DNA from: Streptomyces reniochalinae
GTDB taxonomy: Bacteria; Actinomycetota; Actinomycetes; Streptomycetales; Streptomycetaceae
NCBI RefSeq assembly: GCF_003323735.1
Contig: NZ_QOIM01000038.1
Location: forward strand, 372,001 to 436,000
Reading direction: 5' to 3'
DNA: 64,000 nt
The notes beneath the pieces are model-generated. The model was not told the origin of the DNA. It saw nothing but the letters and a program-made list of their open reading frames with translations, and did not search any database. A program made the position numbers and the translations under genes. Shown one piece after another: positions 34,834 to 37,722 of this stretch. The first letter of the stretch is position 1; the number at the start of each line of letters is the position of its first letter.

Positions 34834-36291
34834 TCAGCCCGCGGCGGGGTCCGGGGCCTCGGGGACACAACGCCCCTCCTGGGTGCGGTAGTTCCACCGC
34901 GCTCCGTTCCGCACCAGCTCCCGTACCGCGGCCGTGAACCGGTCCACGTGCTCGTCGGGCGTCCCGGCGCCGAAGCTGACCCGGACCGCGTTGAGCGTGG
35001 GGGCCTCTCCGGCCGAAGACGGGGAGCCCGGCGCGGCCTCGGGCGCCCCGCACTCGCCGGGAGCGTCGCCCTCCCTGCCGAGGAGGGTGCGCAGCAGCGG
35101 ATGCGCGCAGAACAGGCCGTCCCGCACACCGATGCCGTACTCGGCCGACAGCGCCGCCGCGAAGTGCGAGCTGTTCCACCCCTCCACGACGAACGAGACC
35201 ACGCCCACCTGGTCGGCGCCCTCGCCGAAGAGGGACAGGACACGCACCTGGGGGACGTCGGCGAGACCGGCACGCAGCCGGGCCAGCAGCTCCTCCTCGC
35301 GGGCGACCAGGCCGTCGAACCCCGCCTCCGTGAGGGCGCGGCAGGCGGCGGCGAGGGCGTAGGCGCCGATGACGTTGGGCGAACCGGCCTCGTGCCGGGC
35401 GGCGGTGGTGTGCCACTCGACCTCGACGCCGCCGTCCGCGCTGCGCGCCACCCGGCGGCTGGCACCGCCGCCCGCCAGATACGGCTCCGCCTGGACGAGC
35501 CAGTCCGCGCGGCCCGCCAGGACGCCCGCACCGAAGGGCGCGTACAGCTTGTGTCCCGACAGCGCCACCCAGTCGGCCTCCAGTTCGGCCAGGCTGACCG
35601 GCCGGTGCGGGGCGAGCTGCGCCGCGTCCAGCACGAGCCGCGCCCCGTGCCGGTGCGCCGCCCGCGCCAGCTCGCGGACCGGCCACACCTCTCCGGTGAC
35701 GTTCGATGCTCCGGTCACACACACCAGCTTCGGCCCGGCGGGTGCGCCGTGCAGCGCCGACTCCAGCGTGGCGACGGCGGCCTCGGGGGAACGCGGCGCG
35801 TCCAGGTACGTCACGTCGTGCGCGCGCCACGGCAGCAGAGAGGCGTGGTGCTCGGTCTCGAACACGAACACCTTCGTGCCCTGCGGCAGCGCCGCCGAGA
35901 GGAGGTTGAGGGAATCGGTGGTCGCCCGGGTGAACACCACCTGGTCGCCCTCGCGGCACCCGAGGAACTCCGCGACGGTCCGCCTGCTGTCCTCGAACAG
36001 TTCGGTCGACAGCTGCGAGAGGTGGCCCGCCCCGCGGTGCACGCTGCCGTAGTAGGGCGCGTACGCGGCGACGTCGTCCCAGACCCGCTGGAGTGCGGGG
36101 GCGCTCGCCGCGTAGTCGAGCGCCGCGTAGGTCACCTCCCCGCCGGTGACCAGGGGGACGCGGACGTCACGGCCGAGAACGGGAAGGGGTCCGCCCGCCC
36201 CCTCGGCGGAGGCCGGCGACGTCTCAGGCGCGGAGGCCGCCGCCCGCGTACAGGACGGATCAACCGGGGCAAAAGTGGCATTGAACGGCAT
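34834..36291 (-). CDS. Class V aminotransferase / cysteine desulfurase-like PLP enzyme
   Basis: The 485-residue fold-type I PLP enzyme has YAALDYAASAPALQRVWDDV, GDQVVFTRATTDSLNLLSAA, FETEHHASLLPW, VCVTGASNVTGEVWPV, LVLDAAQLAPH and the PLP Lys in DWVALSGHKLYAPFGAGVL. It resembles SufS/CsdA-like aminotransferases, but no SufS-type catalytic Cys loop is obvious: the region after RDGLFCAHPLLRTLLG is divergent. A SAM-IV riboswitch upstream points to a role in methionine, SAM or sulfur metabolism. The ATG at 36291 follows a GGAG; a mini-ORF lies between the riboswitch and this start. Confidence 0.83.
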   Translation of the reverse strand: MPFNATFAPVDPSCTRAAASAPETSPASAEGAGGPLPVLGRDVRVPLVTGGEVTYAALDYAASAPALQRVWDDVAAYAPYYGSVHRGAGHLSQLSTELFEDSRRTVAEFLGCREGDQVVFTRATTDSLNLLSAALPQGTKVFVFETEHHASLLPWRAHDVTYLDAPRSPEAAVATLESALHGAPAGPKLVCVTGASNVTGEVWPVRELARAAHRHGARLVLDAAQLAPHRPVSLAELEADWVALSGHKLYAPFGAGVLAGRADWLVQAEPYLAGGGASRRVARSADGGVEVEWHTTAARHEAGSPNVIGAYALAAACRALTEAGFDGLVAREEELLARLRAGLADVPQVRVLSLFGEGADQVGVVSFVVEGWNSSHFAAALSAEYGIGVRDGLFCAHPLLRTLLGREGDAPGECGAPEAAPGSPSSAGEAPTLNAVRVSFGAGTPDEHVDRFTAAVRELVRNGARWNYRTQEGRCVPEAPDPAAG

Positions 36292-36445
36292 GGGGAAGCT
36301 CCATGGGCAGGGGTGAACGACGAACGGCGACGACGGCGACGGCACCGCCTCGCTGTCGGACGCAGACGTCAGCGCCTTGCGTGCCCGGCGGGCAGACGGC
36401 ATCGCCGCGCGCCTGGCGGCGGACGGGAAAGGGGCCGAGCCGGCC

Positions 36446-36466
36446 CTAGCGCATTCGCTTGCTCAC
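36446..36466 (-). CDS. Six-codon mini-ORF behind the SAM-IV riboswitch (candidate leader peptide)
   Basis: GTG AGC AAG CGA ATG CGC TAG encodes MSKRMR. It has a strong GAGGGAG ribosome-binding site six nt upstream, much better than that of the aminotransferase. The riboswitch 3' flank contains a CCCTC that could pair with this GAGGG. It ends 155 nt before the aminotransferase start. Whether it is translated is unknown. Confidence 0.4.
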   Translation of the reverse strand: MSKRMR

Positions 36467-36504
36467 GAAAGACTCCCTCGCAGACCAGGACCCCTGGCGG
36501 AGAG

Positions 36505-36624
36505 GGATCCGCGCTTGCCGTGGACCTTGCTGTCCTACGGCCTGGTCATCACCCGGGGCACCCCGCCACGGACGGAGGGTTGCCGGACAGCGGGCCGGGG
36601 CCTTGGTCGCTGTCGCTCGTGACC
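36505..36624 (-). ncRNA. SAM-IV riboswitch
   Basis: On the minus strand the 120-nt segment starts GGTCACGAGCGACAGCG. It continues with GCTGTCCGGCAACCCTCC (the conserved SAM-binding core), GGGGTGCCCCGGGTGATGACC, which closes the P1 helix with the 5' GGTCA, and the 3' pseudoknot part CACGGCAAGCGCGGATCC. These agree in order and spacing with the actinobacterial SAM-IV class as I remember it (about 119 nt). A CATACT -10 box at 36633-36638 would start transcription just ahead of it. SAM binding is expected to lower expression of the downstream aminotransferase unit. Confidence 0.9.
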
Positions 36625-36726: not shown

Positions 36727-37581
36727 TCACCGGGGCAACCGCTCGCACAACAGCCGCACGAGCGCGCCGGTACGGAAGCGGTCGGGCCAGTACGCGGGAA
36801 CGCCCCGCTCGGACAGCGGCGCCGCGGTGACCGGACCGACGCAGGCGACCTGGGCGTGCCCGCGCAGCGCCCGGGTCAGCGCGTCCGCAGAGCCGGTCTC
36901 CTCGGCGCGGGCGAACAGCCCCGCCACCGCGGGGGCGCTGGTGAAGGTGACGGCGTCGACCTCGCCCGCGACCAGTGCCTCGATCAGCCGGTCCAGGGGC
37001 GCGAGGTCGAGCGGCGGTGCCGAGCGGTAGACGGGCACGGCAACGACGTCGGCCCCCGCGGCGCGCAGCGCGTCGAGGAACTCGCCGAGGGGTTCTCCGT
37101 GGAGTTGGACGGCCACCCGCAGCCCCGCCAGGTCTCCGCGTGCGAGCAGGTGTGCGCGTACTTCGGCGGAGGACTCGGAGGCGGGCGACCATGCCTCGCG
37201 GAGCCCGGCGGCGCGAATGGCCCCGCACGCCTTGGGGCCTCGGGCGAGCACCTCGCCCGAGGCCAGCGCGTCGCGCAACGCCTCCCCCGCGCCCCAGTCG
37301 TCCGCCGCCTGCATCCAGCCGCGGAAGCCGATGCCGGTGGTGGCGACGGTGACGTGCGGCGGGCGGTCGACCAGCTGCCGGGTGGCGTCGCGCAGTTCCG
37401 TGTCGTCGCCGAGGGGGACCATGCGCAGCGCGGGAGCGTAGAGGACGCGGGCGCCGCGCCGCTGGAGCAGCGCGCCGAGTTCCCCGGCCCGGCGCGCGGC
37501 CGTCACGGCGACGGTGTAACCGGTCAGCGGCAAGGCCACTCCGGTGCCCTGGGGCCCGTACGGGGGTCGGGGTTCCGGCAC
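36727..37581 (-). CDS. Uroporphyrinogen-III synthase (HemD) domain protein
   Basis: The protein has 284 residues from a GTG at 37581 with GAGGGAGA upstream. The two-lobed HemD fold is recognisable: LTGYTVAVTAARRAGELGAL, VTVATTGIGFRGWM, VAVQLHGEPLGEFLDALRAAG, VDAVTFTSAPAVAGLFARAE, VACVGPVTAAPL and RFRTGALVRLLCERLP. The end resembles the HemD lobe of NnaR-type nitrate regulators, which continue into a winged helix; here translation stops just after RTGALVRLL. It may therefore be a shortened relative of those regulators rather than the heme-pathway enzyme. No hem, nitrite or nitrate genes are near. Confidence 0.8.
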   Translation of the reverse strand: MPEPRPPYGPQGTGVALPLTGYTVAVTAARRAGELGALLQRRGARVLYAPALRMVPLGDDTELRDATRQLVDRPPHVTVATTGIGFRGWMQAADDWGAGEALRDALASGEVLARGPKACGAIRAAGLREAWSPASESSAEVRAHLLARGDLAGLRVAVQLHGEPLGEFLDALRAAGADVVAVPVYRSAPPLDLAPLDRLIEALVAGEVDAVTFTSAPAVAGLFARAEETGSADALTRALRGHAQVACVGPVTAAPLSERGVPAYWPDRFRTGALVRLLCERLPR

Positions 37582-37722
37582 AGCGTCTCCCTCGGGTGTG
37601 GACGGATCGTGCGGGGACGACCGGGGCGAGGGCTCGTCCTCGGTGCGCTCTCCGGCCCACGAGGCTACGTCCCGCCCGCGCGGCTGCCGCTGCCGGCCGC
37701 CTGCGGCGGGGAGAACCTCCAC

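Follow-up and report, generated by a model that had tools for sequence, protein, structure and literature searches.

A predicted SAM-IV riboswitch of Streptomyces faces a conserved six-codon reading frame with an invariant CGA-AUG codon pair

Which reading frame does a riboswitch act on when a minimal open reading frame (ORF) stands between its aptamer and the enzyme gene behind it? The question is raised by a minus-strand leader of Streptomyces reniochalinae, in a stretch of 64,000 nt (positions 372,001 to 436,000 of contig NZ_QOIM01000038.1) that was analysed as a whole, is called the window here, and supplies the coordinates in Table 1. A preliminary description of the locus had proposed a SAM-IV riboswitch followed by a CCCTC able to pair with the ribosome-binding site of a hexapeptide ORF, with the aminotransferase starting about 155 nt farther on. 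Its statements on coordinates, ORF, ribosome-binding site and distance were correct on direct reading, the enzyme ATG at 36291 lying 154 nt past the mini-ORF and being preceded by GGAG at 36302..36299. The aptamer was confirmed as well, with a full-length match to both the sequence and the structure of RF00634 that exceeds the gathering score and is the only match to this family in the S. reniochalinae genome. Binding of SAM and switching of expression by the aptamer are predicted from this match. On the minus strand, the aptamer is followed by CCCUC, AGGGGUCCUGGUC, GAGGGAG, the mini-ORF and then the enzyme ATG. The best NCBIfam match of the enzyme was sufS (248 bits), which is below the cut-off of that family (475).

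Table 1. Parts of the SAM-IV leader and the flanking genes, in window coordinates
Feature	Position	Strand	Basis or remark
SAM-IV riboswitch aptamer (RF00634)	36506..36624	-	cmscan 104.9 bits, E 2.9e-18, model 1-116, full length; gathering score 38
GACCAGG, P1 3' strand, pairable with platform CCUGGUC (anti-P1)	36541..36547	-	
Helix A, 5' strand, GGAUCCCU	36503..36510	-	CCCU of GGAUCCCU doubles as part of the anti-SD
Helix A, 3' strand, AGGGGUCC	36488..36495	-	contiguous-pair count and partner swaps
CCUGGUC, anti-P1 / inner sequestor strand	36483..36489	-	
Anti-SD CCCTC (RNA CCCUC), pyrimidine-rich	36506..36502	-	overlaps the 3' end of the Rfam match by one base
Mini-ORF ribosome-binding site GAGGGAG	36479..36473	-	6 nt before GTG; read directly
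Mini-ORF GTGAGCAAGCGAATGCGCTAG = GTG AGC AAG CGA ATG CGC TAG (MSKRMR)	36466..36446	-	
Stop-codon hairpin GGGCCG-GCU-CGGCCC	36432..36446	-	starts at G of UAG
C-rich, G-poor stretch past the hairpin, possible Rho entry	36415..36431	-	
Class-V aminotransferase / SufS-like cysteine desulfurase-type enzyme, regulated gene (predicted)	34834..36291	-	PF00266 249 bits
HemD-domain gene	36727-37722		other flank of the leader region

Occurrence and conservation of the six-codon reading frame

With up to one mismatch, GTGAGCAAGCGNATGCG occurred once in the 7.7-Mb genome, at the mini-ORF, and the reversed control gave no match. Every one of the 97 Streptomyces loci examined in detail has the mini-ORF, which comes in 20 DNA versions. 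These loci (L001, 30 and six from two SAM-IV searches, and 60 picked from the better-scoring part of the SAM-IV list) were partly hand-picked, so an unpicked census was made and its exceptions were followed up. SAM-IV was found in 194 of the 199 sampled genomes of the genus. The pattern TGNNNNNGCGAATGNNNTAGGG was found in 180 of the 199 and in none of the five genomes without SAM-IV, and all reversed controls together gave one match. The census counts presence, nearness to SAM-IV being known for the matches listed, and one of the two matches in G027 was located elsewhere, away from SAM-IV. The exact pattern was missing from 14 genomes with SAM-IV, of which 10 have diverged ORFs, three have none, and G188 (locus L002) differs in the base after the stop codon. 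The census, together with L002 and the 10 diverged cases, gives the mini-ORF in about 191 of 194 SAM-IV genomes. Thus the comparison proposed in the preliminary description did not yield the refuting outcome that it had named, a conserved riboswitch without a conserved mini-ORF.

Beyond the genus, the mini-ORF was found at 17 loci in nine other genera of the family, and it was absent from the loci read from further genera and from part of one genus. The 80 listed records carrying the motif were mostly from Streptomyces, together with some from Actinacidiphila and Streptantibioticus, one titled Microtetraspora glauca, and unnamed actinobacteria. The labels Streptomyces, Streptomycetaceae and Mycobacteriaceae on the compared genomes are presumptive, that of Streptomyces being drawn from the named records with the motif.

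The hexapeptide MSKRMR, which had been put forward as the thing to look for in other genomes, turned out not to be the conserved unit. It is encoded by 87 of 124 ORFs, which specify 24 different peptides when counted past the first residue, and what is conserved instead is the CGA-AUG pair and the stop codon with its hairpin. In the 97 loci, codon 1 was always a start codon (GTG 95, ATG 1, TTG 1), codon 2 had seven versions, codon 3 was AAG in 82, CAG in 14 and CGG in one, and codon 6 had nine versions, while codon 4 was CGA, codon 5 ATG and the stop TAG in 97 of 97. A column tally of the same loci has a purine block at the position of the ribosome-binding site. The invariance of CGA-AUG is taken from these 97 loci, for which up to five substitutions and no indels were allowed, and not from the 124 ORFs, which were gathered with a pattern requiring a start codon, the frame and CGAATG. 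The ORF is 21 nt long in 122 of the 124 and 18 nt in two. At one locus of another genus (L163), UAG was lost and codon 6 became UGA, so that the changed stop was compensated.

CGA is a rare codon, accounting for 13 of 2089 Arg codons (0.6%) in the enzyme genes behind 113 loci, and among the 115 Arg codons found at position 6 in the 124-ORF set it is used in 70. Among 84,980 genomes, an ORF encoding MSKRMR with CGA at codon 4 gave at least 118 matches, and one with CGC, CGG or CGT at this codon gave none. The 24 peptide versions contain no codon run of the amino-acid attenuator type, and nearly all of them have one internal Met. Judged from this comparison of sequences, which establishes the conservation and the frame of the mini-ORF, the pattern is the signature of an ORF that needs to be translated, in which the peptide carries little weight and the codon pair carries much. 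The platform, as had been described, faces a conserved and apparently translated mini-ORF and not the enzyme, on which any effect must be indirect.

Expression platform, stop-codon hairpin and distance to the enzyme

Platform lengths ranged from 15 to 87 nt across loci, which made an RNAalifold consensus of the platform uninformative, and the helices were therefore examined one by one with partner swaps. In all 107 full-platform loci, helix A (GGAYCCCU/AGGGRUCC in most loci) forms 7-8 contiguous pairs; it also covaried (partner-swap z -5.3, with none of 200 swaps as stable). The anti-P1 pairing GACCAGG:CCUGGUC had 7-8 contiguous pairs in 87 of the 107; partner swaps gave no covariation for it (197 of 200 as good), and it appeared in the best fold with P1 blocked in only 26 of 114 loci. 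Between anti-SD and SD, the longest duplex averaged 5.61 pairs versus 4.23 in shuffles, and the covariation was weak (16 of 200 partner swaps as good). The CCCTC:GAGGG pairing of the preliminary description is predicted at this locus under a SAM-like constraint and shows little covariation across loci. Folding of the minus strand from 36446 to 36624, which had been suggested as a further check, gave a stability slightly better than that of shuffles (z -1.26), with 23 of 200 shuffles as good.

In constrained folds of 114 loci, holding P1 and the 3' pseudoknot strand lowered the mean openness of the SD from 0.24 to 0.12; the SD was more open without this constraint in 27 loci, and the reverse was seen in three. 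The start codon leaned the opposite way, being more open under the SAM-like constraint in 35 loci versus 8. When P1 alone was forced or blocked, the folds had no bias (4 versus 4 of 114). SAM riboswitches usually act in the OFF direction, and this behaviour, taken with the logic of the helices, favours an OFF response at high SAM here as well, as we infer. Fourteen of the 124 mini-ORF loci have 15-20 nt between the aptamer and the mini-ORF start (L018, L109, L112, L160, L161, L184, L189, L252, L256 and L258-L262). With so short a platform the 3' end of the aptamer itself must reach the SD, which implies a different switching geometry with the same mini-ORF.

A hairpin whose 5' arm begins inside the stop codon was found in 110 of 114 loci, versus 40 in shuffled downstream sequence, and the same test at offsets of 30-75 nt was positive in 14-27 loci. 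For 98 of the 114, the hairpin begins with the last base of the stop codon. Its arms covary (partner-swap z -4.3, with 0 of 200 swaps reaching the native stability), and the stem variants include GAGGCC/GGCCUC, GGCGC/GCGCC and GGGGC/GCCCC. Between 15 and 30 nt past the stop, the 114 loci have 52% C and 13% G. No intrinsic terminator was called at the locus studied, and the tail after the hairpin has three or fewer T in 9 nt in 81 of the 114 loci. The C-rich stretch suggests that premature termination here may depend on Rho. A premature transcription unit with a read drop among the most extreme has been reported in S. clavuligerus for a predicted SAM-IV leader, that of a class V aminotransferase gene (PMC8269248). 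A transcriptional outcome at the mini-ORF locus would be in keeping with that read drop.

From the mini-ORF to the first SD-preceded start of the enzyme there are 44-298 nt (median 109, n = 113). Enzyme starts were assigned by rule as the first SD-preceded in-frame ATG or GTG, and the rule gave none at L174. Read-through of the stop codon, fusing mini-ORF and enzyme, was considered and rejected, as the distances (154, 71, 100, 78 and 102, for example) are not a fixed multiple of three. At three loci of the same genus (L251, L253 and L257), comparison shows the platform and an SD directly before the enzyme start, the mini-ORF and the spacer being absent, and the same holds for several loci of sister genera (e.g., L171, L177 and L193). 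Since the enzyme start takes the place of the mini-ORF in such loci, mini-ORF translation and enzyme expression would share one direction, provided that the sense of the switch has been kept. Thus, translation of the mini-ORF probably promotes expression of the enzyme.

Leader ORFs with and without CGA-AUG behind other SAM-IV aptamers

In the loci compared, CGA-AUG is not private to Streptomyces. Sixty-one SAM-IV loci of other families, the better-scoring part of the SAM-IV list, were assigned by motif, with 33 before a class-V aminotransferase, 19 before metY and nine before neither. The aptamers of L121, L142, L144, L150 and L153 were placed with looser settings, and the aptamer ends of L150, L192 and L194 look mis-set, L150 being kept among the 61. 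A search that allowed any Arg codon ahead of ATG gave leader ORFs at six of these loci, from six families; every one precedes metY and uses CGA (MCIRRMCCR, MSCQRMPRR, MTCRMPF, MCCCRMN, MNHHRMRR and MCCCCRMTRR). A seventh family is represented by L245, in which MCCCRM.. precedes metY together with SAM-IV. CGAATG occurred within 200 nt of the aptamer seven times in the 61 loci, six times inside those ORFs and once over the start codon of L037. The mean for permuted hexamers in the same loci was 1.3, and one of them reached 11, so the CGAATG count does not decide the matter by itself. Base pairing between CGAAUG and a complement in the leader was considered and dropped; visual inspection of L141 and L132 gave a CGUUCG partner, which the Streptomyces leaders inspected did not have.

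The CCRM leader pattern TGYTGYCGAATG was found in 70 of 148 genomes, above its reversed control. Fifty matches were taken, of which 44 were readable (L211, L215, L217, L218, L225 and L226 were left out). Those that resemble leader ORFs are L201, L202, L204 and L230, and with SAM-IV L245; L207, L213, L223, L231 and L247 are ambiguous, and the other 34 are not leader-like. The excess over the reversed control is explained by leaders only in part. No NCBIfam family was obtained for those CCRM peptides that were compared. Among loci found without a SAM-IV search, L201, L202 and L204 have MCCRMCR before an OmpR-like winged-helix regulator and L230 has MLCCCRMR before a ROK-type regulator, the gene types being read from the translations. 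The metL leader of S. lividans ends in ..CMCRRMCAF and is a possible further R-M leader (PMC8079986); its CGN-CGN pattern was absent from 61 Streptomyces genomes.

Other ORFs behind SAM-IV lack the pair. After SAM-IV in L186 and L191, both of genus g107, CCTGGGGAGCAYGTGATGGCGTGA consists of an SD and GTG-ATG-GCG-TGA, without CGA-AUG, and the pair may thus be dispensable in some such leaders. In L040 and L047 of family f4, taken for Mycobacteriaceae, the SAM-IV leader ORFs as read by eye contain Cys, end in CCCR-stop and VCRC-stop, and have no CGA-AUG. A different ORF, of 29-56 aa, begins 14-38 nt after SAM-IV where Streptomyces has a second copy of it, and also after SAM-IV in certain other genera and families (L195-L199, L263, L267, L180, L181, L183, L187, L146, L157, L159 and L179), with a (V/I)DL.R-type motif and Cys near the end. 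Of five ORFs of this kind that were tested, two score above the cut-off of NCBIfam NF042934, 'putative leader peptide'. Like the mini-ORF, these are short ORFs close to SAM-IV, but they are longer, have another C-terminal motif, and lack CGAATG within 220 nt in 15 of 15 loci. SAM-IV is therefore followed by leader ORFs of at least two kinds.

Relation to known systems, a model and its alternatives

The layout of a riboswitch followed by an upstream ORF (uORF) is already known, and the invariant synonymous codon is the unusual part here. The preliminary description had known of no such layout, a view overtaken by the riboswitch-controlled uORFs published for Mycobacterium tuberculosis (PMC12810186, PMC11260477). 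There, the M-box leader of pe20 contains the uORF Rv1805A and is subject to Rho-dependent termination (PMC12810186). As in that leader, a riboswitch with a translational platform has a conserved uORF as its first target, the downstream genes of the M-box being affected via Rho, and the mini-ORF is, as in the M-box and B12 type, a conserved SD-preceded uORF between aptamer and gene. The ligand, the aptamer and the clade differ. The pe20 uORF peptide is conserved, with a homologue elsewhere in the genome, whereas the mini-ORF peptide varies, and the invariant rare codon pair and the stop-codon hairpin are features of the mini-ORF that the available part of the source does not mention for pe20 (PMC12810186). 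The B12 riboswitches of M. tuberculosis metE and ppe2 are similar in that riboswitch and translated uORF act jointly on the gene behind; at ppe2 this involves termination-reinitiation at an AUGA overlap (PMC11260477), whereas here the enzyme start is 44-298 nt past the mini-ORF.

Leader ORFs of another class also bear a resemblance, and two of the ORFs found here under SAM-IV, MCCCRMN and MCCCCRMTRR, are of the Cys leader type and have the same CGA-AUG as the mini-ORF. Canestrari in 2020 is said to have described cysteine leader ORFs of actinobacteria as very short and placed before sulfur genes. The mini-ORF is likewise a very short ORF before a sulfur gene, as are the actinobacterial cysteine leader ORFs (Seliverstov 2005, PMC1262725); unlike them, its common Streptomyces form has no Cys codons and no codon run. 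A reannotation of S. lividans places SAM-IV before a cysteine desulfurase gene, and the mini-ORF is not among the eight leader peptides named in its available part (PMC8079986). No description of the SAM-IV mini-ORF or of MSKRMR came up in search listings of the literature accessible without subscription.

The reading that we prefer, and to which we give an even chance, is that SAM-IV gates ribosome loading on the mini-ORF and that the mini-ORF gates the passage of RNA polymerase through the leader. At low SAM, the anti-P1 pairing would replace P1, helix A would hold the anti-SD, and the mini-ORF would be translated. The ribosome would be slowed at the rare CGA paired with AUG, often with a second CGA next, and would then terminate at UAG, where it would cover the 5' arm of the hairpin and the C-rich stretch. 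With the hairpin or the Rho site masked in this way, premature termination would be avoided and translation of the enzyme would begin at its own start. High SAM would leave the SD paired, no ribosome would load, and the hairpin and/or Rho would bring about an early stop. Slow decoding of CGA at the mini-ORF would fit the Salmonella his leader-peptide assay, in which this codon is read slowly (PMC4046918).

More tentatively, and with more doubt than confidence, CGA-AUG might be a general decoding brake of the leader ORFs of actinomycete sulfur metabolism, a slow pair whose AUG would also report methionine charging and which would park the ribosome on a leader element. The Streptomyces form would then be a minimal six-codon AND gate for SAM and translation, with a synonymous codon conserved rather than the peptide. 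A genus-wide riboswitch target of this kind would be a minimal ORF selected at the level of the codon and not of the peptide, and may offer a handle on slow decoding in regulation. Riboswitch-uORF relays, described in mycobacteria, are suggested to be common in Actinomycetes, and such relays could explain the loss of transcript behind riboswitches without a canonical terminator.

A plainer relay of the M. tuberculosis M-box type, in which any short ORF would suffice, the hairpin would be incidental and Rho would load on the C-rich leader whenever the uORF goes untranslated, deserves attention but is unlikely. It has the same layout in print (PMC12810186), it agrees with the C-rich, G-poor stretch past the stop and with a hairpin at which no terminator was called, and it could accommodate the two g107 loci with GTG-ATG-GCG-TGA in place of a CGA-AUG ORF. 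It leaves unexplained the invariance of CGA-AUG and the covarying hairpin anchored at the stop.

A double sensor of SAM and Met-tRNA is distinctly less probable in our view. A shortage of charged elongator Met-tRNA would hold the ribosome at AUG, CGA being in the P site, and so keep it on the hairpin, SAM gating the loading and methionine charging setting the dwell. ATG at codon 5 in all 97 loci is consistent with this, as are the metY leaders in which CGA and ATG are combined, in most cases with Cys codons (L032, L034, L037, L126, L132, L141 and L245). Classical attenuators have codon runs, however, and the mini-ORF offers one regulatory codon besides the start; the invariance of CGA would require a separate argument.

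It is quite improbable that the mini-ORF is inhibitory, SAM opening it and its translation lowering enzyme expression in the manner of the M. tuberculosis metE uORF (PMC11260477). Such a precedent exists, and the greater openness of the start codon in SAM-like folds points the same way; the main argument against it comes from the loci that have the enzyme in the place of the mini-ORF, where the enzyme would then be induced by SAM. Recognition of CGAAUG by a protein or an RNA, the reading frame being incidental, is very improbable. The six-base core is indeed common to otherwise different leaders, but codon 1 was only ever GTG, ATG or TTG in the 97 loci and no indel was needed, and six of the seven CGAATG near aptamers of other families lie in frame inside a short SD-preceded ORF. 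Action of the hexapeptide itself, as an arrest peptide or in trans, has hardly any credit left, for although R-M is kept in all versions seen, there are 24 of these with positions 2, 3 and 6 variable, and it is one rare synonymous codon that is under selection.

A minor observation concerns the commonest version of the mini-ORF, in which GCAAGCG (within 36450-36466 of the window) echoes GGCAAGCGCGG at the 3' end of the aptamer (36508-36518). The repeat is missing from versions such as MNQRMR and is probably due to chance.
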